Shown here: in pieces, positions 3,350-32,155 of the stretch | Numbering within the stretch: the stretch's first letter is position 1 | Layout of the letters: the number at the start of each line of letters is the position of its first letter | Program-made: the position numbers and the translations under genes | The notes under the pieces: model-generated | What the model saw: the letters and a program-made list of their open reading frames with translations, nothing else | What the model was told of the DNA's origin: nothing | Database searches by the model: none | Assembly: GCA_945869735.1 (NCBI GenBank) | Contig: CAMBPQ010000016.1 | Span: 1 to 52,689, forward strand | Reading direction: 5' to 3' | Source of the DNA: Planctomicrobium piriforme | GTDB taxonomy: Bacteria; Planctomycetota; Planctomycetia; Pirellulales; UBA1268 | DNA length: 52,689 nucleotides

Positions 3350-5455
3350 TCAGCGACGCGGTCGCTTGGAGCCGCGGCCGCCGCGCTTCGTGGGGGCTGG
3401 CCGGACTCGGCCTGAAGCCTGATGCCTTCCGCGGCCGGGCCGTTGCTCCCGCATGCCGGCCTTCGGCTTTCGGCCCGGGCCGACGAGCTGGAAGTTGAGC
3501 TCGCGGCGGTCGAGGTCGACCCGGGCCACCGCCACACGGACTCGGTCACCCAGCCGGAACGACTGTCCTGGCCGGCGACCGGAGAGCGTGTGGCTCGCGC
3601 GGTCGTAGCGGTAGGTGTCGTCGGGGAGCGTGTCGAGCGGCACGAGTCCTTCGGCAGGCAGCGCCAGCCCCTGCACGAAGAGTCCGAACGCCTCCACGCC
3701 CGTCACCACGGCGTCCATCTCCTCGCCCACCTTCGATTTCAAAAAGTTGAGCAGCTTCAGCTTGACCAACTCGCGCTCCGCGGACTCGGCCCGCCGTTCG
3801 AGGTCGGAGCATTCAGCGCCGAGATGCACGAGGCCGTCGGCGGGGGGGCGGCGGCCGTGGGCGATGGAATCGAGCGCCCGATGCACGGTGAGGTCGGGAT
3901 AGCGGCGGATGGGGGAGGTGAAGTGGCAGTAGCAGTCGCTCGCAAGCGCGTAGTGGCCGTCCTCCTGCGGGCCGTAGGCCGCGCGGGTGAGGCTTCGCAA
4001 CACGGCGTAGTGCACGGCGTGCTCCTCGGCCTTGCCCCGGGCCATGTCGAGCAGCCGCTGGAGCTCGAAGCGGCTTTCCAAAGAGTCGACTTCGAAACCC
4101 AGTTCGGAGACAAACTCGGTGAGTTGCCGGAGTTTCCGCGGGTCGGGGGCGGGGTGAATCCGCCGCAGAAAACCGGCCCCTGCGACGGCCAGGGCTGAGG
4201 CTACCGCCTCATTTGCCGCCAGCATGAATTCTTCGATGATCTGGTGGCTCTCGGTGTTTTCGACGACGTGGGCACCCGCCACGCGGCCGTCGCGGTCGAG
4301 GTCGATCTTCACCTCCGGCATCTCAAGCTGCAGGGATCCGCGGGCCATCCGGCGGGCACGGAGGATCCGGGCAAGATCCCGCATCCGGCCGAGCAGGCTA
4401 TGGACGTCGGGCGTCATCTCTACAGCGGTCGTGTCGGGATTCGCGAGGAAGACGTCGACCTCTTCATAGGTGAATCGCCGGCAGCTCTTGATCGCGGTCG
4501 ATTCGACCGCCGAGTGCACAGGGATGCCCTCCGGCGAGAACTCGATCCAGCAGGTCCGTGCGTAGCGGACCTTGCCGGGCTGCAGGCTCGCGAGATTGTT
4601 GGAGACGATCTCCGGGATCATCGGGATCACACGGTCGGGCAGATAGACGCTGGTGCCACGGTTGCGGGCCTCCTGGTCGAGCGGTGAGCCATCCCGCACG
4701 AAGTGCGAGACGTCGGCGATGTGCACGCCGAGAAGCCAGTGCCCCCGTTCGACACGCTCCAACGAGATCGCATCGTCGAAGTCGCGGGCATCGACCGGGT
4801 CGATCGTTACGATCACTCGGTCGGTGAGATCGCGTCGACCGGGGGGCACCGTCTCGTCGAAACGCTCGGCCTGCGTTCGGGCATCGTCGACCACCTCTTC
4901 GGGAAATGGTCCGGGAAGCGCGAACTCATGGATCACGGTCTGCGTATCGACGCCGACGTCACCCGCCTTGCCGAGCACCTCGACGATCACGCCTTCGCCG
5001 TCGCGGAGGTGCGTCGGGAATCGCACCATGTCGATGACGACCTTGTCGTTCGGATGCACGCCCTTCGCGCCCGGGTCGCCGACCGAGACGGGGCGGGCGA
5101 AGCCGGTGCCGTCGATCTGGACCCATCCCTGGTCGGCTGCTTCGAAATACGAGCCGACGAACCGTGTCGTCCGTCGCTTGACGATCTCGACGATCTCGCC
5201 GGCAGGGCCAGGCCGTCGGGCGTCCCGGGCCTTTGCGATCCGCACGCGGACGGTGTCACCCGACGCGGCATCGAGGGACGCGACCGCCGCGACATGGACG
5301 TCGTTGGAGCGGTCGCCCGCGGGGGCATCGAGCGGCCGCACGAATCCATAGCCCCCGGAAGCCCGACGGAAGACGCCGATTACGCCGTCATTCTGACCGC
5401 CACCGGACTGGGGTGGAGTTTGAGGGCGGTCGTGGCCATCGCGTTTCCGCGGCAT
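3350..5455 (-). CDS. rnr: Ribonuclease R (RNB family exoribonuclease)
   Basis: A 701-residue 3'-5' exoribonuclease that degrades structured RNA. In order: an N-terminal winged-helix/cold-shock region with a GYGFVRP RNA-binding strand, the RNB catalytic domain with the metal-binding DPVDARDFDDA motif near residues 215-228, the substrate-channel motif HFTSPIRRYPDL, an S1 domain (about 595-665) and a basic Arg/Gly-rich tail. The frame is open further upstream, but the ATG at 5455 starts the conserved N-terminus and has AGGA upstream; the extra 129 codons would translate repeat DNA. Transcribed toward gcvT, leaving a 65-bp gap. Confidence 0.95.
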   Translation of the reverse strand: MPRKRDGHDRPQTPPQSGGGQNDGVIGVFRRASGGYGFVRPLDAPAGDRSNDVHVAAVASLDAASGDTVRVRIAKARDARRPGPAGEIVEIVKRRTTRFVGSYFEAADQGWVQIDGTGFARPVSVGDPGAKGVHPNDKVVIDMVRFPTHLRDGEGVIVEVLGKAGDVGVDTQTVIHEFALPGPFPEEVVDDARTQAERFDETVPPGRRDLTDRVIVTIDPVDARDFDDAISLERVERGHWLLGVHIADVSHFVRDGSPLDQEARNRGTSVYLPDRVIPMIPEIVSNNLASLQPGKVRYARTCWIEFSPEGIPVHSAVESTAIKSCRRFTYEEVDVFLANPDTTAVEMTPDVHSLLGRMRDLARILRARRMARGSLQLEMPEVKIDLDRDGRVAGAHVVENTESHQIIEEFMLAANEAVASALAVAGAGFLRRIHPAPDPRKLRQLTEFVSELGFEVDSLESRFELQRLLDMARGKAEEHAVHYAVLRSLTRAAYGPQEDGHYALASDCYCHFTSPIRRYPDLTVHRALDSIAHGRRPPADGLVHLGAECSDLERRAESAERELVKLKLLNFLKSKVGEEMDAVVTGVEAFGLFVQGLALPAEGLVPLDTLPDDTYRYDRASHTLSGRRPGQSFRLGDRVRVAVARVDLDRRELNFQLVGPGRKPKAGMREQRPGRGRHQASGRVRPAPTKRGGRGSKRPRR

Positions 5456-7603: not shown

Positions 7604-9118
7604 ATGCCCGACCACGCCATCAGCCCTACCCGAGCCGAGGACTATCCCGAGTGGTATCAGCAGGTCGTCAAGGCGGCCGATCTCGCGGAGCAATCACCTG
7701 TTCGCGGCTGCATGGTGATCAAGCCCCACGGCTACGCCATCTGGGAGCGGATGCAGACGATCCTCGATCGGATGTTCAAGGCGACGGGCCATCAAAACGC
7801 CTACTTCCCCCTGTTCATCCCGCTCTCGTACCTCGAGCAGGAGGCGAAGCACGTCGAGGGCTTCGCGAAGGAGTGTGCGGTGGTCACGCATCACCGGCTG
7901 GAACTCGGGCCTGACGGCAAGCTGATCCCCACGGGAAAACTTGAGGAGCCGCTCGTGGTGCGGCCGACGAGTGAGACGATCATCGGCGCGATGTATGCCA
8001 AGTGGATTCAGTCGTGGCGGGATCTGCCGATGCTGATCAACCAGTGGGCCAATGTCGTCCGCTGGGAGATGCGGCCGCGGGTCTTCCTGCGAACGTCCGA
8101 GTTTCTCTGGCAGGAGGGGCACACGGCGCATGCCACGAGCGAGGAGGCCGTCGAGGAGACGCTCCGCATGCTCGATGTCTACGCCACGTTCGCCGAACGC
8201 GATCTCGCGATGCCGGTGGTGAAGGGTCCGAAGACCGCAGCCGAACGGTTTCCCGGAGCAGTCGATACCTACTCCATCGAGGCGATGATGCAGGACGGCA
8301 AGGCCCTCCAGGCGGGCACGTCCCACTTCCTCGGTCAGAACTTCGCCCGTGGCCAGAACATCAAGTTTGCGAGCACGAGCGGGGCGGAGGAGTTTTGCTG
8401 GACGACGTCGTGGGGCGTGTCAACGCGACTCGTCGGGGCCGTGATTATGACCCACTCTGACGACGACGGCCTCGTGCTGCCGCCGCGGATCGCCCCGCAC
8501 CAGATCGTGCTGCTGCCGATCCACCGCACCGACGAGGAGAAGGCGGCGGTCATGGAGGCCTGCCGGAAGCTCGAGGCGGAGTTGTCGGCGGCGACGTTCG
8601 GCGGCGAGCCGATCCGCGCAAAGATCGACGCCCGCGACATGCGGGGCGGCGACAAGGTCTGGCAGCACATCAAGCAGGGCGTGCCGGTGCGCGTGGAGAT
8701 CGGCCCCCGTGATCTAGCGGCCGGTGCCGGGAGCATGACGCGGCGCGATCGTGGACCGAAGGAGCGGGTGGCGGTGCCGCTCGCGGAGTTTGCCTCGCGG
8801 GCTCCGACGCTGCTCGAGGAGATCCAGCAGGGGCTCTTCGAGCGGGCGAAGGCCTTCCGCGCCGAGCGGACGGTCCGGCTCGATTCAGCCGCGGATGTAC
8901 ACGTGTTCTTCGGGGCAGGGGAGGGGCCTGGCGAGGGCTCGGCTCGGGGCGGCTTCGCCCACGTACACGTCGCCGATGACCCGGCGGTGGCGGCCGCCTT
9001 CGACCCGCTGAAGGTGACCGTGCGGTGTGTGCCGATGGAGGGTAACGACGAACCGGGCACGTGCGTGGTGACCGGCAAGCCGGTGCCGCGAAGAAGCGTG
9101 CTGGCGCGGTCGTATTAG
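7604..9118 (+). CDS. proS: Prolyl-tRNA synthetase (archaeal/eukaryotic-like, type 3)
   Basis: A 504-residue class II synthetase that charges tRNA-Pro. Motif 2 is around VRWEMRPRVFLRTSEFLWQEG, TSE in RPTSETIIG is the proline-pocket signature, and the anticodon-binding domain follows near residue 300. There is no YbaK-type editing insertion of the kind found in the long bacterial form. The length and the C-terminal extension ending in Tyr mark the archaeal/eukaryotic-like (ProS3) class. The ATG at 7604 has GGAG upstream and begins the conserved N-terminus. Confidence 0.95.
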   Translation: MPDHAISPTRAEDYPEWYQQVVKAADLAEQSPVRGCMVIKPHGYAIWERMQTILDRMFKATGHQNAYFPLFIPLSYLEQEAKHVEGFAKECAVVTHHRLELGPDGKLIPTGKLEEPLVVRPTSETIIGAMYAKWIQSWRDLPMLINQWANVVRWEMRPRVFLRTSEFLWQEGHTAHATSEEAVEETLRMLDVYATFAERDLAMPVVKGPKTAAERFPGAVDTYSIEAMMQDGKALQAGTSHFLGQNFARGQNIKFASTSGAEEFCWTTSWGVSTRLVGAVIMTHSDDDGLVLPPRIAPHQIVLLPIHRTDEEKAAVMEACRKLEAELSAATFGGEPIRAKIDARDMRGGDKVWQHIKQGVPVRVEIGPRDLAAGAGSMTRRDRGPKERVAVPLAEFASRAPTLLEEIQQGLFERAKAFRAERTVRLDSAADVHVFFGAGEGPGEGSARGGFAHVHVADDPAVAAAFDPLKVTVRCVPMEGNDEPGTCVVTGKPVPRRSVLARSY

Positions 9119-9145
9119 CGCGCATGCCGATGACGTGAGGCGCGA
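9119..9145. other. Start of the proS-DUF1573 intergenic gap
   Basis: Short stretch between the proS stop and the repeat block. The whole gap (9119-9463, 345 bp) is dominated by repeat family 1; nothing else was recognised apart from the last 70 bp, which must hold the start region of the DUF1573 gene. Confidence 0.4.
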
Positions 9146-9394
9146 CGACCGCCTCGAGGCCGCCCGCATCCCCCGCGCTTGCGCTTGGGGCTTCTTGGGG
9201 AGCGGCATGGCTCACGGATGATCGAAACGCTTTCCGATCGTGAGGAGCCGGGGGTGGCACGCGCAGACGCCGGGGAATGTTTGCGACTCACGAGCGACGC
9301 CCCGTCGGCCAAACCGGCATCCTGTAGCAAAATCCCCCGGCGGCGAGCATGCCACCGCCGGCGAACCATTCCGGCACCGTCTCGAGGCCGGCCC
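9146..9394 (+). repeat. Interspersed repeat family 1, copy C (two partial units)
   Basis: Plus-oriented copy just after proS. A short remnant (about 9146-9196) carries the hairpin CCCCGCGCTTGCGCTTGGGG followed by CTTCTTG. A nearly full unit without its own hairpin follows (about 9215-9394), with GGATGATCGAAACG, CGATCGTGAGGAGCC, TTTGCGACTCACGAGCG and GCAAAATCCCCC. The order (hairpin of one unit, about 20-bp spacer, body of the next) mirrors the tandem at 5603-5938, so this block looks like a decayed tandem of two units. Confidence 0.82.
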
Positions 9395-9463
9395 GGTAGA
9401 CTGTCGCGACGGTGGCTTCGGGTGGCCGTCCGGTTCGATGTCGCGAGCAGGACTGGTGCTGTC

Positions 9464-10657
9464 ATGGCGATGAACGGTCTCGGTGCATGGCGGGTCGCTG
9501 CGGCGGCGCTGGTGGCTGGAACCGCCGTCGGCGGGGCAGGGGCCATGCTCAAGCATGCGACACCATGGCGTGTGGGCGATGTACGCGTGGTCGACGGGGA
9601 TGCGACCGGTCCTGCGCCGCGGGCCGAAACCCTGGAGACGCGGCACGAGTTTGGCACCGTCGGCGTCGGCGCCACCGGCTCCCACGAGTTCACAGTGCGG
9701 AACATCGGCGCCGCGCCGCTCACGCTTAGCCGTGGCGCCACGAGCTGCACCTGCACGGTCAGCGATTTCGAGACTGCCGAGGGAGGCTCTCCCGATGCCC
9801 GCAAGGTGGTGCCGCCTGGCGCAAGCACAAGAATCAAGGTGCAGTGGCGGGGCAAGGGTGACGGCGGCCCCTTCCGCCAGCAGGCCACAATCCTCACCGA
9901 TGACCCTCGCCGTCCGGAACTCGTGTTCGTCGTCGATGGAATGGTCGTGCCGACCTGGAAGGCATTGCCCGACGCGGTCTTTCTCCCCCGGGTCTCGGCA
10001 TCGACCGGCGACAGGGGGACGGCCGACATCTTCACCTACGGGACGTCGGCACCGAGTGTCACAGAGGTGGTTCTTGACGAGCCCCAAGTTGCCCATCTTT
10101 TCTCGCTCTCCACGGAGCCGCTCGATCCGGCCACGATCGCGGCGGAACAGGGGGCGACCGGCGGATTCCGGCTCGTGGTCGACGCAAAGCCCGGATTGCC
10201 GCTGGGGCCGCTGAAGCGGCTGGTTCGGGTGGTGTTTCAGACGCCGGACGAGGTGACGGCCGAAATTCCCCTCGCGGGAATGGTCGGGGGTGACCTTGTC
10301 ATGGCGGGCCCGGGATGGGATTCCTCTCGGCAAGCGCTCCTACTGGGAACGGTCTCCGGCAAGGCGGGCCTACGCACGAGGGTGTTTCTCACGGCCAAGG
10401 GTCCGCATCGCAAGAGCGTGCGGCCGACGGTCCGGGAGGTGGTTCCCGATTCGCTTCAGGTGACGGTCGGCGAAGGTCGGCCGATCGGCGCCGGGGGCGT
10501 CGTGCGGATACCAGTGGATATAGTTATTCCGGCGGGCAGCCGGGCAGCCAACCACCTCTGCTCCCAGCAGGGGCCGGCGGGCAGGATTGTGTTGGATACC
10601 GGCCACCCCGAGTCGCCGGAGTTTACGATCCCGGTTTGCGTCGCCGTCGGGCCCTGA
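9464..10657 (+). CDS. Secreted DUF1573-domain protein
   Basis: A 397-residue protein with an N-terminal hydrophobic segment (about 9-29), then an Ig-like DUF1573 domain. The hallmark is a stretch reading HEFGTVGVGATGSHEFTVRN followed by ATSCTCTVSDF, which contains the conserved Cys pair. The C-terminal half appears to hold further beta-sandwich domains. DUF1573 proteins are abundant and extracytoplasmic in planctomycetes, with unknown role. It lies 14 bp before the tetrahaem protein gene, so the two are probably co-transcribed and act in the same compartment. The ATG at 9464 was chosen because the upstream frame runs through repeat DNA. Confidence 0.82.
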   Translation: MAMNGLGAWRVAAAALVAGTAVGGAGAMLKHATPWRVGDVRVVDGDATGPAPRAETLETRHEFGTVGVGATGSHEFTVRNIGAAPLTLSRGATSCTCTVSDFETAEGGSPDARKVVPPGASTRIKVQWRGKGDGGPFRQQATILTDDPRRPELVFVVDGMVVPTWKALPDAVFLPRVSASTGDRGTADIFTYGTSAPSVTEVVLDEPQVAHLFSLSTEPLDPATIAAEQGATGGFRLVVDAKPGLPLGPLKRLVRVVFQTPDEVTAEIPLAGMVGGDLVMAGPGWDSSRQALLLGTVSGKAGLRTRVFLTAKGPHRKSVRPTVREVVPDSLQVTVGEGRPIGAGGVVRIPVDIVIPAGSRAANHLCSQQGPAGRIVLDTGHPESPEFTIPVCVAVGP

Positions 10658-10671
10658 ACACGAACCCACCC

Positions 10672-12240
10672 ATGAATCACGAGATCCTCCGCCGGTCGCT
10701 TCCGGCCACGTGCGTTGCAGCCGCGCTGACACTGGCCTGCCTCGCCGCCGCCCCCGACCGTGGCGTTGATGTCGCTGACGCGGTCGTGGAGACCTTTCGC
10801 CAGCGCAACGGGACGATCTTCAAGGACTGGCCCATGCCTCAGGCGGTGGTCGTGGTCACCGGCGAACTCGACGGCTACATCGAGCCCTGCGGCTGCACCG
10901 GCAAGGAGAACCAAAAGGGTGGCCTGAGTCGCCGCCAAAACTTCCTCCGCGCCCTGTCGGCCGCAGGCTGGCCATTCGCGGCGGTGGACGTCGGCAACCA
11001 GGTGAAGCGTTTTGGCCGTCAGACGGAGGCGAAGTTTCAGTCCATCGTCGATGGTCTGCGGGCCATGCAGTATGCGGCCGTGGGCTTCGGCCCGGGCGAC
11101 CTGCGGTTGCCGGCCGAGGAACTCGTCGCCGGCGTGGCGGCCGTGGGCGATCAGCCGACGCCGTTTTTAAGCGCGAACGTGGGCTTGCTCGGCCTCGATG
11201 CCAACATCACGCCAAAGTTTCGTGTTGTCGAGATCGGCGGCCTGAAGATCGGGATCACGAGCGTGCTCGGCGACAAGGAAATCGAGCGCATAAAAAACTC
11301 CGACGTCGAGTTTGTCCCGGCTGTCGAGGCTCTCGCCAAGGTCGCACCCGAACTGGTCAAGGCGGGCTGCGACCACCAGATTCTGCTCTCGTTTTCGTCA
11401 CCCGAGGAAACAAAGTCGCTGGCTGCAAAGTATCCGCAGTTCGACGTCGTGGTGACGGCGGGCGGTGCGGATGAACCGCCGCTCGAGCTTCCCTCGCTGC
11501 CCGGGGGAGCGAAGTTCGTGGAACTCGGCCACAAGGGGATGTTCGCGGTCGTGATTGGATTTTTCTCAGGCAAGGCGTCGCCGGTCCGCGGTCAGCGGGT
11601 GCCGCTCGACGCTCGGTGGGGCGAATCGAAGGACATGATCGACCTGCTCGGGACGTACCAGCAGAAACTCGAGACGCTCGGGCTGGAGGGACTCGGCCTC
11701 GTGCCGATCCGTCATCCCTCGGGCCGACGGTTCGCCGGCAGTGAGGCCTGCGCCGAGTGCCATCAGCATGCCTACGACATTTGGAAGGACACACCGCACG
11801 CGACCGCGCTGACGACGCTTGAGGAGCAGCGGCCCCGGCGCGACGGCGATCCGGAGTGCCTGTCGTGCCACGTCGTGGGCTGGGCGCCGCAACGGTTTGA
11901 GCCCTTCGAGGGAGGCTTCGCCGGCATGAGGACGACGCCGCAACTCTCTCACCAAGGCTGCGAGAATTGCCACGGTCCGGCCGCCGCCCATACCGCCGTC
12001 GAGCGGGGCGATGTCCGCGCCAGCGTGGCCGAGCGGGACCGGCTGCGTCGGGAGCTCGTGCTCACGCTCGCCACCCCCGAGGGGAAGCAGAAGGCGGTCA
12101 ACAACTGCCTGGAGTGCCACGACCTCGACAACAGCCCGCAGTTCGACTTCGACGACTATTGGCCGCAGGTCGAGCACAACGACCCGGAGCAGGGCGACGC
12201 CACGAAGGCGGCGGAACCTGTCGCCGTTGCGACACCGTAG
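10672..12240 (+). CDS. Secreted metallophosphatase-like / tetrahaem cytochrome c554-like protein
   Basis: A 522-residue exported protein with a signal peptide (about 1-26, ending AAA). Residues about 55-340 resemble the N-terminal metallophosphoesterase domain of 5'-nucleotidase/SoxB-type enzymes (EPCGCTGKENQKGGLSRR, DVGNQ, FGPGDLRL), but the usual Asp-x-His metal ligands are not evident, since TGELDGY occupies that place. Residues about 355-490 form a c554-like haem domain with four CXXCH sites at C360, C396, C430 and C479. It probably carries electrons in the periplasm; the substrate is unknown. The tail is acidic. It lies 14 bp after the DUF1573 gene. Confidence 0.78.
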   Translation: MNHEILRRSLPATCVAAALTLACLAAAPDRGVDVADAVVETFRQRNGTIFKDWPMPQAVVVVTGELDGYIEPCGCTGKENQKGGLSRRQNFLRALSAAGWPFAAVDVGNQVKRFGRQTEAKFQSIVDGLRAMQYAAVGFGPGDLRLPAEELVAGVAAVGDQPTPFLSANVGLLGLDANITPKFRVVEIGGLKIGITSVLGDKEIERIKNSDVEFVPAVEALAKVAPELVKAGCDHQILLSFSSPEETKSLAAKYPQFDVVVTAGGADEPPLELPSLPGGAKFVELGHKGMFAVVIGFFSGKASPVRGQRVPLDARWGESKDMIDLLGTYQQKLETLGLEGLGLVPIRHPSGRRFAGSEACAECHQHAYDIWKDTPHATALTTLEEQRPRRDGDPECLSCHVVGWAPQRFEPFEGGFAGMRTTPQLSHQGCENCHGPAAAHTAVERGDVRASVAERDRLRRELVLTLATPEGKQKAVNNCLECHDLDNSPQFDFDDYWPQVEHNDPEQGDATKAAEPVAVATP

Positions 12241-19338: not shown

Positions 19339-20664
19339 TCAGGCCGAGGCCGGCCATGAACGGACCACGAGTGAGCCCGCCTGGCCCTGGGGTGTGATCG
19401 ACGTCGAGACAAACACGTCGCCCGCGGGGTCGCCCCGGCGGGCTGGGCGGATCGCGCACTCCTCGTCGGCGGTCTCGTGGTTCAAGAGCGGGAAGAGTTC
19501 GCCCTGTCGCATGGCAAGAATGCTTCCTACGCATTCAACGAGGCCGCTGCCGCCGCCGAGGTTTCCGAAGTGGCTCTTCGCGGCAACGGTGGGAATCCTG
19601 CCGGCAGCATCGCCGAGCACGTCGTGCAACGCCCCGGCCTCGTCGCGGTCGCCGGTGACCGTGCTCGCCCCGTGGGCGTGCACGTGGCCAATACCGTCGG
19701 TCGCCACTGCGGCCATCTCGAGCGCCCGCCGCAACGCGTGGCCGACGGCCTGCCGACGCCTGCCGACCGTTGCGAGGCTGGTCGAGCACCTCGCGGCGTG
19801 GCCGATGATCTCTCCGTAGATTCGCGCACCGCGGGCCTGCGCGTGCGAGAGTTCCTCGAGGATCAGCACGGCCGAGCCTTCGCCGAGCACCATGCCGCGG
19901 CGGTGCTTATCGAACGGTCTGCTCCACGTCGTCGGGTCGCCGCCGCCGGTGGCGACCTGCTCGCTCTGCAACGCATGGACCGTCTTCATCGGGTGCACCC
20001 GGGTGCCGGTGGAACCGGCCACCATGATGTCGGCCGCCCCACGTTGAATCGTGACCACGGCTTCGCCCACGGCGAGGTGGCCGCTCGCCTCGCGGAGCGT
20101 GAGCGAGTTGCTAGGCCCGCGGAGGTCGTTGTAGATCGCGATGTGGCTGGCTGGCATGTTCGGCAAATACTTGAGCAACCACAGCGGCGTAAGCTGCGGC
20201 ATGCCATCGCTCGCCCAGAGTTTGAAGTCGAAAAGCCCGTCGGCACCGCGGCACTTGGCGACGCTTGCGGTGAAGTCCTCGGGCAGTGTCAGCATGTAGT
20301 CGGAGCCGAAAACGCAGCCGAAGCGTTCGGGAGCATGGTGGGCTGTTGCATTGCCGCAGTCGTAGAGCGCCCGCTGGGCGGCGGCCACGGCCATCTGACT
20401 CTCACGACACATCACTTTGCAGCCCTTGCGGATCGCCTTCTTTCGCTCGCCGTCGAGCGGGCCAAAGTTATCGATTTCACCGGTGAATCCGCGGGCTTCG
20501 GCGGCGTGGTGCAGCGGGATGCCAGCCGTTGGAAACGCGTCGAGCGGCCCGACGCCGCTCGTTCCTTCGACGAGCCCCTTCCAGAGGTCGTCGAGCGTCA
20601 GCCCTAGCGGGCTGACGACACCCATTCCCGTGATCACTACCCGACGCCCGGTCGATCCGCTCAT
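19339..20664 (-). CDS. Beta-ketoacyl synthase homologue lacking the active-site Cys
   Basis: A 441-residue thiolase-fold protein of the FabF family; it starts RRVVITGMGVVSPLG like FabF. Aligning GPSNSLTLREASG with the FabF nucleophile loop (GPSxxxxTAC) puts Glu192 where the catalytic Cys should be. The first catalytic His survives (H331 in HAHGAS) and Lys363 is kept, but the second His is Asn368 (KSHFGN in place of KSQLGH). It cannot perform normal condensation. Possible roles, by analogy, are a chain-length-factor-like partner or a KSQ-like decarboxylase. It lies downstream of the fab operon on the same strand. The ATG at 20664 starts the conserved fold. Confidence 0.8.
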   Translation of the reverse strand: MSGSTGRRVVITGMGVVSPLGLTLDDLWKGLVEGTSGVGPLDAFPTAGIPLHHAAEARGFTGEIDNFGPLDGERKKAIRKGCKVMCRESQMAVAAAQRALYDCGNATAHHAPERFGCVFGSDYMLTLPEDFTASVAKCRGADGLFDFKLWASDGMPQLTPLWLLKYLPNMPASHIAIYNDLRGPSNSLTLREASGHLAVGEAVVTIQRGAADIMVAGSTGTRVHPMKTVHALQSEQVATGGGDPTTWSRPFDKHRRGMVLGEGSAVLILEELSHAQARGARIYGEIIGHAARCSTSLATVGRRRQAVGHALRRALEMAAVATDGIGHVHAHGASTVTGDRDEAGALHDVLGDAAGRIPTVAAKSHFGNLGGGSGLVECVGSILAMRQGELFPLLNHETADEECAIRPARRGDPAGDVFVSTSITPQGQAGSLVVRSWPASA

Positions 20665-20734: not shown

Positions 20735-21712
20735 TCACGGTCCGCCACCGAGCCTGGGCTCAATGACGATCACCACGTCGCACCGTTTTACATCCGACAG
20801 CAGTGCTACCGGCATCACATTTTGCGCGGGCACCGGCCAAGGCACCAACCCGATTCCAATGACGAGGGTCTGGTTGGCTGGCCAGCGAAACCGCTCTCCC
20901 ACGCGGACGGCCGCGACCTGGGGCACCTCCACCTGCACCCGCTGCTGGTTGACGGGCGAGGCGAGCGATACCGCCGCCATCCGCTCGATCTGGTCGATCC
21001 GGCAGCGGACCACGGCCTCGATGGCGGTCTTGTCGCTGGAAATCAGCGGGTGGACGTCGATCGCCAGGCCCTCGTCGCAGGCCGACGACTGTGTCTGCCA
21101 GCCCGGCCAGACATCGGGCCGCGGAGCGACGTCCTGAACGTAGGCCTGCTTACGGCCGCCGGAAAGCGTCGCCGGTAGGCCGTTGGCGGCCAGCACCGGG
21201 CCCGTGGGCAGTTCGTGGCAATCAGACCGCGATCGCAGCCGTGCCAGCACGGTGGCCGCCGTTTCGCGCTGCGCGAACCAAGCCTGCACGCCGGGCGTCG
21301 CCACGGGAATGGCCGTCAGCGCGGGGCGGGCCTCGGTTCGCCACGCCGGGCTGTCGAGGCCCAGCACGCGGACGGTGAAGCGATGCGGTGTGTCGGCCTC
21401 GTCGACGAACCGGGCCACGACATCCTCGACCTTCGCCTGCATCTCGGGCGTGTGGAAGCACGAGACTTGCACCGCGTCGGCCGACAGCGATGCGGGGGTC
21501 GCCCCATGCCATGCGGGATAGCCGGTCTCCTGCAGGATCCAGTCGACGACGTAACGCTGGCTTCCCTCGCCGGCCTGCGTCACGAATGGCCCGATCGCGT
21601 ACGTCTTCCAGACCTGCCCACCGCCGGCGGGAATCTGCGCTGGTGCCGCGCGTGCCGACGCAAGCATGGCGACGCAAGCCAACACGACGGGATAAATCGA
21701 TGACCACAGCAT
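20735..21712 (-). CDS. Secreted secretin-like (GspD C-terminal type) protein
   Basis: A 325-residue exported protein with a signal peptide (about 1-28, ending AAPAQ). The C-terminal third (about residues 210-320) resembles the secretin beta-domain of type II/III secretion outer-membrane proteins in its strand pattern (AIEAVVRCRIDQIE, RVQVEVPQVAAV, NQTLVIGIGLV), but the protein is too short to be a complete secretin and has no clear N-domain series. Planctomycetes carry several such stand-alone proteins. The ATG at 21712 has GAGG upstream; a GTG 18 codons earlier is less likely. It sits between the ketosynthase homologue and fabF on the same strand, separated from fabF by repeat DNA. Confidence 0.6.
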   Translation of the reverse strand: MLWSSIYPVVLACVAMLASARAAPAQIPAGGGQVWKTYAIGPFVTQAGEGSQRYVVDWILQETGYPAWHGATPASLSADAVQVSCFHTPEMQAKVEDVVARFVDEADTPHRFTVRVLGLDSPAWRTEARPALTAIPVATPGVQAWFAQRETAATVLARLRSRSDCHELPTGPVLAANGLPATLSGGRKQAYVQDVAPRPDVWPGWQTQSSACDEGLAIDVHPLISSDKTAIEAVVRCRIDQIERMAAVSLASPVNQQRVQVEVPQVAAVRVGERFRWPANQTLVIGIGLVPWPVPAQNVMPVALLSDVKRCDVVIVIEPRLGGGP

Positions 21713-21837
21713 GACCGGGAGCCTCGCGGGAAGGCGGGGACTGTAGGAAGACTGCGGCGCACGCACAAGGCGGAAGGGGACCGAAGTTGGCCGAGAGCAG
21801 CGCCCGCGGCGGTGTGGAGCGGGAGGAGGTGGGTGGC

Positions 21838-21944: not shown

Positions 21945-23183
21945 TCAGATGCGGGCGATCACGAGCGACGCGTTGTGGCCGCCGAAACCGAAGGAGTTGC
22001 TCATGGCAACATCGACCTGCGCCTGCCGCGCGGTCTTGGGCGTGTAGTCGAGGTCGCAATCTGGGTCGGGGGTGTCGAGGTTGATCGTCGGGGTGATCAC
22101 GCCCCGAGAGACGGTCAGGCTGCAGACCACGAGTTCGATGCCGCCGCTGGCGCCCAGCGTGTGGCCGAGTTGGCTCTTGGTGCTCGAGATCGCGAGCCGC
22201 TTCGCATGGTCGCCGAAGACCCGCTTCATGGCCCGCGTCTCGGCCTTGTCGCCTAGCGGCGTGCTGGTCCCATGGGCGTTGATATATTGCATCGAATCCG
22301 GGTTCATGCCGGCGTCGGCCAAGGCCATCTCCATCGCCCGGCCGGCTCCCCGCCCCTCGTCATCGGGCTGGGTGATGTGGCCCGCGTCGCCGCTGGCGCC
22401 GTAGCCCTTGAGCTCAGCGTAGATCCGAGCCCCCCGCTTTTTCGCGTGTTCAAGCTCCTCAATCACGACGACACCCGCGCCCTCAGCCAGCACGAAGCCG
22501 TCACGGCCGGCGTCGAACGGACGGCTCGCCTGCTGCGGAGCGTCGCCGCGAAATGACAGGGCCCGCATGTTTTGGAAGCCGGCCAGACCGATGGGCGTGA
22601 GCGCGGCCTCGCTGCCGCCCGTCACCATCACGTCGGCGTCGCCGTATTGGATGGCCCGCAGGGCGCTACCGATCGAGTTGGCCGCGCTGGCACAGGCCGT
22701 GGCGACTGCGAAGTTGGGGCCACGGATGCCATAGAGGCTGGAAACGTGGCCGCTGGCCGAGTTCACCATCAACTTCGGAATCGTAAACGGCGAGACCTTG
22801 TCGACGCCCTTATGGAGCAGCCGCTCCTCCTGGACCTCGAACTCCCAGAGCCCGCCGATGCCGGAGCCGATCACAACGCCACAGCGGTAGGGGTCTTCCG
22901 CGGAGAAGTCGAGCCCCGAGTCGGAGACCGCGTCCTTCGCGGAGGCGAGGGCAAACTGCGTGAAGCGATCGAGCCGCTTCAGTTCCTTGAGGGTGGCAAT
23001 GTCTTCGTTCTCGGGCTCCCAGTGCACCTGGCCGCCGAACTGCACCCGGTATCCGGACACGTCGAACAGCGAAATCGGTCCCACACCGCTGTCGCCGCGC
23101 ACGACCCGGTCCCAGAACACTTCGACATTCCGGCCCAGGGAGGTCACGACTCCCAAACCGGTCACCACGGCCCTTCGCTTCAT
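21945..23183 (-). CDS. fabF: Beta-ketoacyl-ACP synthase II
   Basis: A 412-residue condensing enzyme of fatty-acid elongation. All catalytic residues are present: C164 in ATACASA, H304 in NAHGTST and H341 in KSQLGHTLGASG. The ATG at 23183 (MKRRAVVTGLG) has GGAG six bases upstream; an ATG five codons earlier is possible. It follows acpP by 37 bp in the rpmF-fabD-fabG-acpP-fabF group. It is the complete counterpart of the degenerate homologue 1.3 kb downstream. Confidence 0.97.
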   Translation of the reverse strand: MKRRAVVTGLGVVTSLGRNVEVFWDRVVRGDSGVGPISLFDVSGYRVQFGGQVHWEPENEDIATLKELKRLDRFTQFALASAKDAVSDSGLDFSAEDPYRCGVVIGSGIGGLWEFEVQEERLLHKGVDKVSPFTIPKLMVNSASGHVSSLYGIRGPNFAVATACASAANSIGSALRAIQYGDADVMVTGGSEAALTPIGLAGFQNMRALSFRGDAPQQASRPFDAGRDGFVLAEGAGVVVIEELEHAKKRGARIYAELKGYGASGDAGHITQPDDEGRGAGRAMEMALADAGMNPDSMQYINAHGTSTPLGDKAETRAMKRVFGDHAKRLAISSTKSQLGHTLGASGGIELVVCSLTVSRGVITPTINLDTPDPDCDLDYTPKTARQAQVDVAMSNSFGFGGHNASLVIARI

Positions 23184-23220
23184 CGATCGCTCCGCCATCC
23201 CTGCTTCGCGAACCCTCGGA

Positions 23221-23457
23221 TTATGACTGGTGCTTCTCGATGAACTCGACCGCCTGACCCACGGTCTGGATCTTCTCGGCAGCGTCGTCGGGAATGTTGA
23301 TCTCGAACTCTTCTTCGAGTTCCATCACCAACTCGACGGTATCGAGCGAGTCAGCCCCCAGGTCCTTGATGAACGATGTTTCGGCGGTGATTTGATCCTT
23401 GCTCACACCAAGTTGGGAAGCCACGATGTCAATCACTCGATCTTGGACTGAAGCCAC
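23221..23457 (-). CDS. acpP: Acyl carrier protein
   Basis: A 78-residue, acidic acyl carrier protein. The phosphopantetheine attachment site is S37 in [11 protein letters not shown]. The GTG at 23457 has a strong AGGAGG upstream and yields the standard N-terminus; the longer open frame gives a non-homologous extension. It sits between fabG and fabF, as in many bacteria. Confidence 0.96.
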
Positions 23458-23666
23458 CTTATGAATCCTCCTGAGGCCCCTCTGCGACCCGACCGTTGCA
23501 AGGGCGGCGTGCGGGGCAGGGCGTTCTAACGATCTTGGAGGCAGCCCTCCGAGGCTGCGCACCTTACCTGGGTTATGGTCGAAGATATACCCGCTGCCGG
23601 CCAGACGTGTCCAGACCGGGAAAACATCCCGGAAACCAAGTGATTCATGTGCCGCGGGAACAGTCA

Positions 23667-23703
23667 GCATCAGGAAGCCCCACGGCGTGAGCCGTGGGGG
23701 CCG
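23667..23703 (-). terminator. Family 1 short hairpin copy H, after fabG
   Basis: A perfect 9-bp stem (CCCCACGGC / GCCGTGGGG, 23678-23686 and 23691-23699) with a 4-nt loop, starting 4 bases after the fabG stop. On the minus strand it reads CCCCACGGC, loop, GCCGTGGGGCTTCCTGATG. It has no T-run. It could terminate or attenuate transcription before acpP, or protect the 3' end of the upstream mRNA. The rest of the 243-bp fabG-acpP gap holds only the acpP ribosome-binding site. Confidence 0.65.
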
Positions 23704-24486
23704 TTATCCGATCATGCCGCCGTCGACCACGAGCGTCTGGGCGGTGATGTAGCCCGACGAGGGGGCGGCCAAGAACAGCACCGCCTCCGCGATCTCCCAG
23801 GCTTCGCCCAGCCGCTTGGCCGGCACCCGCTTCTTGACCTCGTCGAGAAGCGCGGGGCCGAGGGCTGCGGTCATGTCGCTGGCGATGAAACCGGGGGCCA
23901 CGGCATTGACCGTGATCTTCCGACCCGCGAGTTCCTTGGCGACGGTCTTCGTGAGGCCCACCAGCCCGGCCTTCGAGGCGGAGTAGTTGGCTTGTCCGGG
24001 ATTGCCGATCAGGCCCGAGACGCTGGCCACGTTGATGATCCGGCCGTACCGCTGCTGCATCATCGGCCGGCTGGCGGCCCGCATGAAGAGGAAGGGGCCG
24101 CGGAGATTTGTGTCGAGAACGGTGTCCCACTCCTCGTCGCTCATTCTCGGGAGGAGCGTGTCGCGGGTGACGCCGGCGTTGTTGACGAGGATGTCGAGGC
24201 GGCCATATTTTTCCACCACCAGATCGATGACCCGCTGGGCCTCCTCGGTTTTCGAGACGTCGCAGGGAACTTCCTCGACCTTCCCGCCGGCCGCGCGGAT
24301 GCTGGCCGCGACCTGGGCAAGCTTGTCGGCGGAGCGGGCGGCGATGGCGACCGTCGCGCCCGCGGCCGCGAGCGTCTCCGCGATCGCGCGGCCAAGGCCC
24401 TGCGAGGCGCCCGTGACGAGGGCCACCTGTTCGCTCAAGTCCACCTTCAACTGCTTGCGAACCGCCTGCGTCGTCTCGTCAGCCAT
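23704..24486 (-). CDS. fabG: 3-oxoacyl-ACP reductase
   Basis: A 260-residue short-chain dehydrogenase that reduces 3-ketoacyl-ACP with NADPH. The Rossmann loop TGASQGLG, NNAG, and the catalytic triad S155-Y168-K172 (YSASK) are present, and the protein ends in VDGGMIG as in FabG. It carries an extra N-terminal stretch of about 15 residues. The ATG at 24486 has GGAGG nine bases upstream; an ATG two codons earlier is also possible. Part of the fab operon. Confidence 0.95.
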   Translation of the reverse strand: MADETTQAVRKQLKVDLSEQVALVTGASQGLGRAIAETLAAAGATVAIAARSADKLAQVAASIRAAGGKVEEVPCDVSKTEEAQRVIDLVVEKYGRLDILVNNAGVTRDTLLPRMSDEEWDTVLDTNLRGPFLFMRAASRPMMQQRYGRIINVASVSGLIGNPGQANYSASKAGLVGLTKTVAKELAGRKITVNAVAPGFIASDMTAALGPALLDEVKKRVPAKRLGEAWEIAEAVLFLAAPSSGYITAQTLVVDGGMIG

Positions 24487-24545
24487 GGTCATCTGCCTCC
24501 GGAAAAGTCGGTGAATGCGAGTCGGTGAAGGTCAGTCGGTGAAGG

Positions 24546-25520
24546 TCAGTCGAAGACACCGGAGCATGCCACGCTTCGGTCGATCCGCTTCATGAGGCCG
24601 CGAAGTACGCGTCCGGGACCAACTTCCCAGATCGACCGCGTACCCGTGGAAAGGATGTATGCCATGGAGGCGTTCCACTCGACAACACCGACCACCTGCC
24701 GCGCCAGGAGGGCCCGGATCTCGTCGGGATCGGTGTGGGGTCGGGCGTCGACGTTGCTGACGACGGGAATCCGCGGTGGGTGGAAGGCCACGTCCGCCAG
24801 CGCCGCCGTCAGCCGCTCCACGGCGGGCTGCATCAGGGAGGTGTGAAACGCCCCTGCAACTTCGAGGGGCACGCACTTCATCGCCCCGGCGGCCACCGCC
24901 GCGGCGTCGAGTCGGTGACAGGCCACGGCGGAACCCGAGACGACGATATTGCCGGGGCAGAGAACATTGGCCACCTCCAGCACGTCGCTAGCGCGGCATT
25001 CCTCGCACAGGGCCGTGAGCTTCTCACGGTCGACGCCGAGCACCGCCAGCATGGTGCCAGGACGCTGCTCGGCGCATTCCTGCATGGCGCGGCCGCGGAT
25101 GTCGACGAGCCGCACGGCGTCGTCGAAGTCGAGGACGCCGGCGAAGACAAGCGCCGTGTATTCGCCGAGCGAGAGGCCAGCTGTGACCGTCGCGGCGTCG
25201 AGCGGATGGCCGTCGCGGGAGCGGAGCAGTTCGAGGGCAGCAAGACTCGCGACGAGGATCGCCGGCTGGCTCACGGCCGTCGTGTTGAGCCGGTCGGCGG
25301 GGCCGCTGCGGCACACAGCAAGCAGGTCGTAGCCAAGGATCGCGGAGGCCCGGGCAAAGAGGTCGGCGGCCTGGGGATGAGTCTCTACCCAGTCGCCGGC
25401 CATACCGACGGCCTGAGCGCCCTGCCCGGGAAAGAGAATCGCCGGTGCGGCTGCATCACCCGGCGTCGAATCCGGCTTCAAATCCGGAGCGGACGCGTTG
25501 CCCACGTGACTCGCCCCCAC
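24546..25520 (-). CDS. fabD: Malonyl-CoA:ACP transacylase
   Basis: A 324-residue acyltransferase that loads malonate onto ACP. FPGQGAQ near the N-terminus, the nucleophile S117 in GLSLGEYTAL and the catalytic His in AGAFHTSLM are visible. The start is uncertain: a GTG at 25520 lies 4 bp after rpmF and another at 25505 is equally usable; the conserved fold begins at about residue 27. The distance to rpmF indicates coupling. The usual plsX and fabH, which often lie between rpmF and fabD, are missing. Confidence 0.93.
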   Translation of the reverse strand: MGASHVGNASAPDLKPDSTPGDAAAPAILFPGQGAQAVGMAGDWVETHPQAADLFARASAILGYDLLAVCRSGPADRLNTTAVSQPAILVASLAALELLRSRDGHPLDAATVTAGLSLGEYTALVFAGVLDFDDAVRLVDIRGRAMQECAEQRPGTMLAVLGVDREKLTALCEECRASDVLEVANVLCPGNIVVSGSAVACHRLDAAAVAAGAMKCVPLEVAGAFHTSLMQPAVERLTAALADVAFHPPRIPVVSNVDARPHTDPDEIRALLARQVVGVVEWNASMAYILSTGTRSIWEVGPGRVLRGLMKRIDRSVACSGVFD

Positions 25521-25524
25521 AGGG

Positions 25525-25707
25525 TCAGGCTTCGTCTGTCTTGACGACGATCTTGCCCATGTACGTGCCACAGACGCCGCACACGCGGTGGGTCGGCACC
25601 GCTTTGCCGCACGTGGAGCAGAACGTCAACTGCCGAGGCGTGAGGAAGTCGTGCGCCCGGCGGGACCGGGTCTTCTGATTGGATTGACGTCGCTTGGGAA
25701 CGGCCAT
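25525..25707 (-). CDS. rpmF: 50S ribosomal protein L32
   Basis: A 60-residue protein beginning MAVPKRRQSNQ with the zinc-type CSTCGKAVPTHRVCGVCG pair of CxxC motifs, so it is the Cys-containing (C+) form of L32. AGGTGA lies just upstream of the ATG. It heads the fab operon, in line with the common rpmF-fab arrangement. Confidence 0.96.
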   Translation of the reverse strand: MAVPKRRQSNQKTRSRRAHDFLTPRQLTFCSTCGKAVPTHRVCGVCGTYMGKIVVKTDEA

Positions 25708-29455: not shown

Positions 29456-32155
29456 TTAGGAGGCCATCACGAGGAACCCGTCTTTGTCCACGCCGAAGGC
29501 CTCTCCCAACGTTGCCGCCCCAGGCTGGCCCTTCCCGGGCCGGACGGTCGCCGTGGCGGCGATGACGAGTGTGCCCTCGGCGGCGTCGGAAATGCCCTGA
29601 GAGGTGAGCGACGGCAGGCCGAGCGGACCGCGCATCGCCGCCCGCGGCCAGACCACCACGCCGTTGACCACGCGGCCGACCGTGTCGGGCTTCGCGGTCG
29701 TCTCGTGGTCCCACTCGATCCGCGCCGACGGCGTGTTCATCGCCACAAGGCCGCCCACCTCCGGCGGCGCGTAGGCCACGACCGGTTCGATGCCGCAGGC
29801 GTCCTTGAAGCGGTCAATCGCCTCGCGGGCCCGTGGCAGATCGCCCGCCGAGGCAATCGGCAACACGACGGCGGTGAGATGCAGCGCGAGACCCTTGGCC
29901 GAGGAAGGGTCCGCGGCGAGCGTCAGCACCTGCTCGATCCGCGCCAGCCAGATCGTGGCTTGCGCTCGGGCAAGCGACGCCACGATCGCGGCGGCCGGCG
30001 TCACCGCGTCGAGCACGGTGGCCCTGATGCCGAGCAACCGGCCCGCGTGCAGGCCGAGCGAGTCGTGGAGCGGATCGCCAGCGGCAAGCGACGCGACGAG
30101 CCGATCGGTCCGCTGGACGATGCAGCAGCCGTCAAAGGCCTCGGCAGTCGCGGCAAACGGATCGAGCCGGCGGGCCACGGCCGAGGCGGTAAGTTCCTGG
30201 AGCGCGAGCCGAGCCTCGTTGGGGTGCGTGCCCACGGGAAGCGGCGTGCCAAACGTGAGCGTGATCGACCGCCGCCAGAACCGCGGCCGTTTTGAGAAGT
30301 ATCGGCCTTCCGAGAACGAGAGCAGGCTGCCCCACAGGCCGTCGATCGAGAGCGGCAGGATCGGGGCATCCACCTTTTCGAGCAGCCATTCGAGGCCGCG
30401 CTTGAAGCCCAGCAACTGGCCCGTCCGCGAGATGCCTCCTTCGCAGAAGATGCCGATCACGTCGCCGTCGGCGAGGCCCGCCTGGATCGTCTTGAGCGCC
30501 GTGCCGATCGACTTGGGCCGCGGGTCGAAGAGGATGAACCGCCACTGATCGGCGAGCATCCGCATGAACTTTCCCTGGATGTTGGGACCGTAGACCACCA
30601 TCCGGATCGGCCGCGGACAGGTGAGTGGCAGTAGAAAACCGTCGAGCCACGAGAGGTGGTTGGCGACCACGACCATTGGCCCCGTCTCGGGCACGTTGGC
30701 TTCGTTGACCACGCGAAACCGCCAGCCGGCATTCACGATCGTCCCGATGACCATCCGGAGCGTCGCCCGCGGCGCGCAATAGACCGCGGCCACCGTGGCC
30801 GCCAGCGAGCAGAAGCCGAAGAGCGCGAAGAGTCCGCGGGCCGACACGAGCGGCTGGGCCGACTCGCCGCTGCCGAGCGGCGTCCGCAGGCCACCGTAGA
30901 CGAGCGAGGCTGCGAACATGCCGGCAAACACGAGGAGGTTCACCGAAGCCAGGATTGACCCGCGCCGGGCCGGCGGACTCTGCTCCTGGAGGTAGGCCTC
31001 GAGCGGCACGTCGAACATGCCGGCGCCGATCCCGAGCACCGCCAGCCAAAACGCCGGCAACGCGAGCCGCCACCCAGAGCCTTGGACGACTTCGGCGGCG
31101 AAGATCTCAGTTCGCGACATCGCCAGCGCGAAGCAACCGACCGCCATCACGATCCCGCCGAGTGGCACGAACCCGAGATCGACTCTCGAGCCGTCCTCGA
31201 TGCCCCGCGTGGAGAGTTTTCCGGCAATCATGCTGCCGAGGCCGATGCCGCCCACGAGGGCCACGAGCAGCGGCACGATCTGTCCCTGCGATTTCGCCCC
31301 CGACTCGAAGGCAAACTGGTCGACGTTGAGTTGGGCGATCGCCGCGAGTGCCCAAAAAAAGACGATGCCGGCGGCGGTGGCGAGCAGTTTGGTCGAGCCG
31401 AAGAGTTCGGCGAGGTCGCGGTACGTGGTGGCCAACGCATTGACCGGGGCGGGGGTGTCGGGGGCGGCGGCGGGTGTGCGCTTCAATCGCAGCGACGCCA
31501 GCCAGCCGGCGACGGCCACGCCGACGAGCGCCACCGCGGCCGGAATCGCATGGTCAGAGGGCGTGGCGGCGGCCACATCGGACGACAGCGGCGTGACGTC
31601 AGCGAGCCAGTTGCCGCCGGCCATCCCCGCCAGCGTGGCGGCAAGCGTGACCAGCGCGAAGATGCCGTTGGCGTTGGAGAGACTCGCCAGGGGTACCGTT
31701 TCCGGAATCGCGCCCAGGATGCTTGGGGCCATCAGGGCGGCCTGAACCCCGATCACTGTCACCGTGCCGAGCAGAAGCCAGAGCCCCAACGGTAGCCCGA
31801 GCCATGCGGTCCCCGTCCCCGCGCCCCAGCCCACGACGATGGCCGCGGCGGCGGCGATCAGGATCTCGGCGAACTTCGCCCACACGATCACGGAGCGCTT
31901 CGGGAACCGGTCGGCGAGCCAGCCCGCCAGCCAGGCCAGCACCACGAACGGCAGCACGAAGCCGGCGGTGCCGATCGTGAGCACCAGCGCCGTGCCCGCG
32001 GTGCCGGCCGCCCGCTTGCCGAGGCCAATCACGAGCCAGCGGAGGAGGTTGTCGTTGAGGACGGTGAGCACCCGCAGCGCGAGCAGCGGCACGAAGCCGC
32101 CCGCGCCCGAGCTGGCTGCGGCTCGCGAGGGATCGGAAGTCGGTGGGAGGTCCAA
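29456..32155 (-). CDS. MFS transporter-PlsC acyltransferase fusion (LplT-Aas-like)
   Basis: An 899-residue inner-membrane protein. Residues about 20-430 form an LplT-like MFS domain of about 12 helices (NDNLLRWLV, DRFPKR). Residues about 445-640 are a PlsC/LPLAT domain with the H-x4-D motif NHLSWLD (near residue 500) and a later EGGISRTG in place of the usual EGTRS. The remaining 260 residues carry a shrunken remnant resembling the end of an acyl-ACP synthetase (AMP-binding) domain (TTAKPDTVGRVVNGVVVWPR), but the ATP-binding P-loop was not seen. Known Aas/LplT fusions import and reacylate lysophospholipids; here the activation step must come from elsewhere if it works that way. Confidence 0.8.
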   Translation of the reverse strand: MDLPPTSDPSRAAASSGAGGFVPLLALRVLTVLNDNLLRWLVIGLGKRAAGTAGTALVLTIGTAGFVLPFVVLAWLAGWLADRFPKRSVIVWAKFAEILIAAAAAIVVGWGAGTGTAWLGLPLGLWLLLGTVTVIGVQAALMAPSILGAIPETVPLASLSNANGIFALVTLAATLAGMAGGNWLADVTPLSSDVAAATPSDHAIPAAVALVGVAVAGWLASLRLKRTPAAAPDTPAPVNALATTYRDLAELFGSTKLLATAAGIVFFWALAAIAQLNVDQFAFESGAKSQGQIVPLLVALVGGIGLGSMIAGKLSTRGIEDGSRVDLGFVPLGGIVMAVGCFALAMSRTEIFAAEVVQGSGWRLALPAFWLAVLGIGAGMFDVPLEAYLQEQSPPARRGSILASVNLLVFAGMFAASLVYGGLRTPLGSGESAQPLVSARGLFALFGFCSLAATVAAVYCAPRATLRMVIGTIVNAGWRFRVVNEANVPETGPMVVVANHLSWLDGFLLPLTCPRPIRMVVYGPNIQGKFMRMLADQWRFILFDPRPKSIGTALKTIQAGLADGDVIGIFCEGGISRTGQLLGFKRGLEWLLEKVDAPILPLSIDGLWGSLLSFSEGRYFSKRPRFWRRSITLTFGTPLPVGTHPNEARLALQELTASAVARRLDPFAATAEAFDGCCIVQRTDRLVASLAAGDPLHDSLGLHAGRLLGIRATVLDAVTPAAAIVASLARAQATIWLARIEQVLTLAADPSSAKGLALHLTAVVLPIASAGDLPRAREAIDRFKDACGIEPVVAYAPPEVGGLVAMNTPSARIEWDHETTAKPDTVGRVVNGVVVWPRAAMRGPLGLPSLTSQGISDAAEGTLVIAATATVRPGKGQPGAATLGEAFGVDKDGFLVMAS

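Follow-up and report, generated by a model that had tools for sequence, protein, structure and literature searches.

This locus raises the question of what a ketosynthase (KS) homologue with glutamate in place of its active-site cysteine does at the end of a fatty-acid operon. The gene, here called Glu-KS (19339-20664, minus strand), lies in a window of 52,689 nucleotides, the whole stretch of DNA analysed, from a planctomycetotal genome of 3.17 Mb. Along the minus strand, the gene order is ruvC-ruvA-ruvB, fabD, fabG, acp, fabF, HypX, Glu-KS, nusA, infB, rbfA. The fab operon encodes a FabD-type malonyl transferase (24546-25571) and a FabG-type ketoreductase (23704-24492), both assigned by sequence and synteny, an acyl carrier protein (ACP; 23221-23466, its start being approximate within the ORF 23221-23670; Pfam PF00550, E 1.5e-15) and a canonical FabF with the Cys/His/Lys/His set (21945-23198; NCBIfam fabF 594.6 bits, cut-off 493.75), all on the minus strand. 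This ACP is the only one beside Glu-KS. The HypX gene (20735-21766, minus strand; 343 aa) separates fabF from Glu-KS, and nusA-infB-rbfA follow downstream on the same strand. HypX has a signal-peptide-like N-terminus and a weak similarity to MshL (secretin-type), matched no Pfam family, and its homologues (32-59% identity) adjoin Glu-KS in many Pirellulales. Elsewhere in the window, 29456-32155 (minus strand) encodes an 899-aa protein combining MFS and acyltransferase domains in a single chain, which resembles lysophospholipid systems of the LplT-Aas type, and 10315-12240 (plus strand) a protein of 641 aa that contains multihaem domains of the cytochrome c554/c7 type.

Translation from the ATG at 20664 down to 19339 gives a protein of 441 aa. 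BLASTP aligns it with the FabF of the window over 436 columns at 31% identity (E 2e-54) and places E192 at the nucleophile Cys, H331 at the first His, K363 at the Lys and N368 at the second His, exactly as the preliminary description had read these four sites. Both the N- and C-terminal ketoacyl-synt families of Pfam exceed their cut-offs, and the score against NCBIfam fabF (TIGR03150), 265.8 bits, is below the curated 493.75. The AF2 model (pLDDT 92.9, pTM 0.92) shows a complete KASII fold, superimposing on Thermus FabF (1j3n) with Z 58.0 and rmsd 1.7 over 402 residues. Glu-KS shares its fold with canonical FabF (KASII) but has lost the nucleophile, the second His and the gating loop NSFGFGG, whose commonest replacement in the Glu-KS clade ends in VTPQGQA.

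Outside Pirellulales and Planctomycetales, in other orders and classes of the phylum, the genes of Glu-KS relatives, which we refer to as beta', are usually followed immediately by the gene of a KS that has Cys, alpha', commonly within a DH-ACP-DH-beta'-alpha' cluster. The tandem was found in all 38 further genomes of other orders, with beta' always before alpha', and ACP and DH genes stand just upstream of the pair in 37 of them. Some pairs of families f72 and f78 have no adjoining ACP/DH, and the two genes are apart in family f28. The genes flanking these clusters are mostly housekeeping-looking and differ between genomes; genes for GH3-family acyl-adenylating enzymes occur near two of them (L141, 11662-13380; L144, 3412-5310). 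Two dehydratase-like genes are found in the clusters, in some cases together with a FabG, and the genes examined included no enoyl reductase. By analogy with highly reducing type II polyketide synthases (PKS), an unsaturated product would fit this gene content, which we regard as only a lead.

In the IQ-TREE phylogeny, alpha' and beta' each form one clade (support 100/97) and are sisters of each other (97/98). The catalytic C/H/K/H set is intact in every alpha' read. The first beta' branch, composed of L159, L160 and L168 (joined by L118 in the larger tree), has kept both Cys-His-Lys-His and NSFGFGG and stands in tandem with alpha', while all remaining beta' read have no Cys, the branch leading to them being supported at 100/99. 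Since the deepest beta' branch retains Cys, one old loss of this residue inside a tandem KS pair would be the simplest history, on a tree whose method infers no root.

Planctomycetales-like and Pirellulales genomes have one beta' copy within or close to the fab/nusA region and a second one at a different place, and their alpha' stays with its own ACP and DH. The best reading is that in this lineage the Glu-KS gene moved beside the fab operon and alpha' stayed with the ACP. In the host genome, the alpha' gene occupies 8805-10094 (minus strand) of contig C6, where it is accompanied by a longer ACP and by two dehydratase-like genes, one resembling FabZ and the other FabA/FabZ. Glu-KS is not adjacent to it and has FabF one gene away. 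A second beta' paralogue with the pattern Asp/His/Lys/His is present on contig C88 (about 3919-5184 of G000:C88; 1474-2739 of L002). This Asp-type gene follows an LptB-like ABC ATPase gene of the same strand at a distance of ~0.7 kb, and the end of the contig carries a fragment of another Asp-type copy.

The two sister proteins also occur together across genomes. Within the family of the host, alpha' is present in 69 of 72 genomes (34/34 of those of high quality), as a rule in single copy, and Glu-KS at >=60% identity in 66 of the 72; it was likewise found in most of the 146 genomes sampled from the order, and many of its nearest named records are Pirellulales. Four metagenome-assembled genome records titled Candidatus Kuenenia stuttgartiensis (L216, L217, L219, L221) encode a Glu-KS 72-78% identical to this one, and their species names look misassigned. 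In a sample of 196 genomes from across the phylum, alpha' and beta' occur jointly in 33 and are both missing from 161; beta' is alone in the fragmented G352 and alpha' alone in G445, so that the two are together in 33 of the 35 genomes having either. Here alpha' was called at >=417 bits against <=~389 for other KSs, a bit-score split chosen after seeing the lists. The 33 genomes belong to the class of the window and to families f28, f38, f54, f67, f72, f78, f84 and f88. Since they are related and co-occurrence tracks phylogeny, they are not independent and no p-value is given.

Since the nucleophile was lost in a tandem pair, the full fold is kept and the protein follows its sister through genomes, the simplest reading is a subunit resembling a chain-length factor (CLF). 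Glu-KS would then be the non-condensing member of a heterodimer, most likely with the alpha' KS of contig C6, a reading to which we give a probability of about 0.6. Its relatives travel with an intact second copy, so that Glu-KS is probably no broken gene but the silent member of a two-part enzyme. In such an alpha'-beta' heterodimer, the Cys-bearing partner would carry out condensation and the beta' subunit would shape the acyl tunnel or the docking of the ACP. Glu192 would take the place of the lost nucleophile and might pair with Lys363, which is conserved; a salt bridge between the two is a guess.

A structural model of a related pair is compatible with this arrangement. The beta'-alpha' pair of L141, which is a relative's pair and not the host's, was read through as one chain of 877 residues, a fusion that forces proximity of both KSs, and AF2 returned a pTM of 0.91, pLDDT dropping under 50 in the linker and a single short loop only. 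The two genes are in frame, the single TGA between them being read as Gly; the alignment, which took in only in-frame adjacent pairs, comprised only 11 sequences (the L141 pair and ten similar ones), and of the five models two scored poorly (mean pLDDT 61-63). Such a pTM would not be expected if the two domains had an undefined mutual placement. The model does not favour a heterodimer over homodimers, and a similar result would be expected for KS homodimers. It counts against the main reading that in the host genome Glu-KS is not beside alpha', that at least two beta' proteins (the Glu and the Asp type), either of which may pair with alpha', are present for one alpha', and that His331 and Lys363, dispensable in a purely structural subunit, are mostly retained in the clade.

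The preliminary description had proposed a heterodimer partner of FabF. The tandem KS-KS ancestry upholds a partner in kind, and the evidence favours alpha' rather than FabF as its identity. It is nevertheless conceivable, though we consider it improbable, that after its relocation Glu-KS became the CLF-like partner of the fab-operon FabF, with the Asp-type paralogue remaining alongside alpha'. Indeed, fabF lies just upstream in 10 of 10 regions from the family of the host and in L133, L134, L137 and L139, no gene separates it from Glu-KS in L054 and L055, and a separate Asp-type beta' is at hand in the same genome. On the other hand, fabF is near Glu-KS in only 14 of the 23 regions read and missing there in the other 9, whereas alpha' accompanies beta' in the 33 of 35 genomes counted above. 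Furthermore, nearly every genome searched has FabF-type KSs, whereas beta' tracks alpha', which is also its sister clade. FabF as the sole ancestral partner was set aside on account of the patchy adjacency.

The conservation of the four sites bears on the readings that give Glu-KS a chemistry of its own. The preliminary description had asked whether homologues share the unusual residues, and they do: among 80 named orthologues, Glu and Asn are invariant (80/80 each), Lys is found in 78 and His in 68. In the wider Glu-KS clade of 101 sequences, the Cys site is E in 99 and D in 2, Lys363 is kept in 100, Asn368 in 94 and His331 in 80; the other 21, part of the host's own family included, have F, Y, Q, R, D or N at the His331 position. 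Across the phylum, 168 of 170 beta' sequences have an acid at this position, the two exceptions being S and N. In 37 tandem beta' sequences, all of them acidic, E and D exchange. Glu is retained despite the loss of other catalytic residues, as in forms reading E/F/R/N, E/F/A/N and E/S/K/N. Since the carboxylate outlasts the other catalytic residues, the site seems selected for an acid and not for a decarboxylase set.

These data weigh on the idea, also raised at the outset, that Glu-KS supplies starter units as a KSQ-like malonyl-ACP decarboxylase making acetyl-ACP, with His331 and Asn368 stabilising the enolate, compare the Cys-His-Asn set of the FabH type. KSQ domains have lost Cys and retain decarboxylation, which offers a precedent, and their usual residue at this site is Gln. 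KSQ loading domains and malonyl decarboxylases resemble Glu-KS in the replaced Cys and the often kept first His; the gene follows fabD-fabG-acp-fabF, and His and Asn are the commonest residues at positions 331 and 368. Glu-KS nevertheless differs from KSQ in having Glu rather than Gln and Asn for the second His, and one-fifth of its clade has lost the first His. No clade member (0/101) combines both FabF-type His, the gating loop is gone, and the acid is better conserved than the residues that decarboxylation would require, some tandem forms losing most of them. We therefore disfavour this function and judge it unlikely.

The same strict carboxylate, together with the retention of Lys363, would also suit a catalyst with a different chemistry, in which the acid acts as a general base or nucleophile on acyl-ACP in hydrolysis or transfer. 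We hold this to be highly doubtful: besides Lys363 there is no second conserved catalytic residue, His331 being variable, and a tandem with a Cys-KS usually marks a KS-CLF pair. Finally, a functionless, decaying pseudo-enzyme, which the loss of nucleophile, one His and gating loop might suggest, is scarcely credible against an intact frame, a Glu strict in the clade and dN/dS of 0.07-0.15 between Glu-KS and four relatives, indicative of purifying selection. Recent decay, which the preliminary description would have read from Cys in close relatives, is ruled out by the conservation of Glu and by dN/dS, and Cys was found only in the deepest branch, whose family f38 members share 36-38% identity with Glu-KS.

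Beyond this locus, a second acyl-chain synthase is indicated in nearly all examined members of a well-studied planctomycete class, and the beta'-alpha' history is a natural experiment on the origin of KS-CLF heterodimers. A bolder proposal, which we advance tentatively and think rather improbable as a whole, is that the acidic beta' form a KSbeta clade which evolved independently of the actinobacterial CLFs and contributes one half to a second type II synthase, fatty-acid or polyketide-like (DH-ACP-DH-beta'-alpha'), belonging to the core metabolism of whole orders of Planctomycetota, and that their conserved carboxylate serves in catalysis or gating in a way novel among ketosynthases.

Classical CLFs of type II PKS have Gln at the Cys site. 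Like beta', the CLFs of the actinorhodin (1tqy) and ishigamide (6kxd-6kxf) systems have a full KS fold without the nucleophile and stand beside a Cys-KS and an ACP, while beta' differs from the classical CLF in having Glu or Asp instead of Gln. The gene order differs as well, since KSalpha precedes the CLF in the three actinobacterial clusters read and beta' precedes alpha' in planctomycetes. The KS-CLF pairs came from three actinobacterial plasmids, two being annotated as chain-length factor and one assigned by position; these CLFs fall apart from the acidic beta' in the free tree, and a forced single clade is not rejected (p-AU 0.33). Planctomycetes have been listed among the phyla with CLF-like hits (PMC10132072). 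Our literature search, which covered malonyl-ACP decarboxylases as well as type II PKS of planctomycetes, found nothing specific beyond this paper, PMC2649909 and PMC4790861.

Another parallel is provided by the anammox bacterium Kuenenia, whose non-canonical FabFs are encoded beside canonical ones, once with FabZ and ACP (PMC4790861). As in beta'-alpha', a Cys-KS adjoins a KS that lacks the catalytic residues in the ladderane-cluster pairs kuste3605/3606 and kuste2804/2805, the first pair being the one with FabZ and ACP; these pairs differ in their Val or Phe/Asn/Lys/Glu pattern and in having the Cys-KS gene first. The anammox proteins are separate from beta' in the free tree, and here too a forced single clade is not rejected (p-AU 0.11). 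The PDB entries 9s5h and 9s5i each contain two KS sequences, one with Val/Asn/Lys/Glu at the four positions, and its residues Val, Asn, Tyr, Gly, Lys and Glu match those tabulated for kuste3606 (PMC2649909), so that the entries probably represent kuste3605/3606. They were found by sequence, 9s5h being absent among the Foldseek and VIA matches listed, and our literature search found no paper on either entry.

The substitution itself is not new, since Table 2 of Rattray et al. 2009 (PMC2649909) lists both Glu and Asp in Rhodopirellula baltica: Glu/His/Lys/Asn in NP_866153 (RB4527) and Asp/His/Ile/His in NP_865682 (RB3714), which grouped with the non-canonical Kuenenia FabFs. By this table, R. 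baltica resembles the host in combining a Glu-type KS with an Asp-type paralogue in one genome. As far as its tabulated comparison goes, that ladderane paper deals with two proteins of one species, without analysis of operon, tandem, co-occurrence or wider conservation. The breadth of beta', its single origin, its tandem ancestry and its co-occurrence with alpha' appear to be new, and the single-species oddity of 2009 becomes a traceable event, in which one copy of a tandem KS pair lost its nucleophile and Cys-bearing survivors are still extant.
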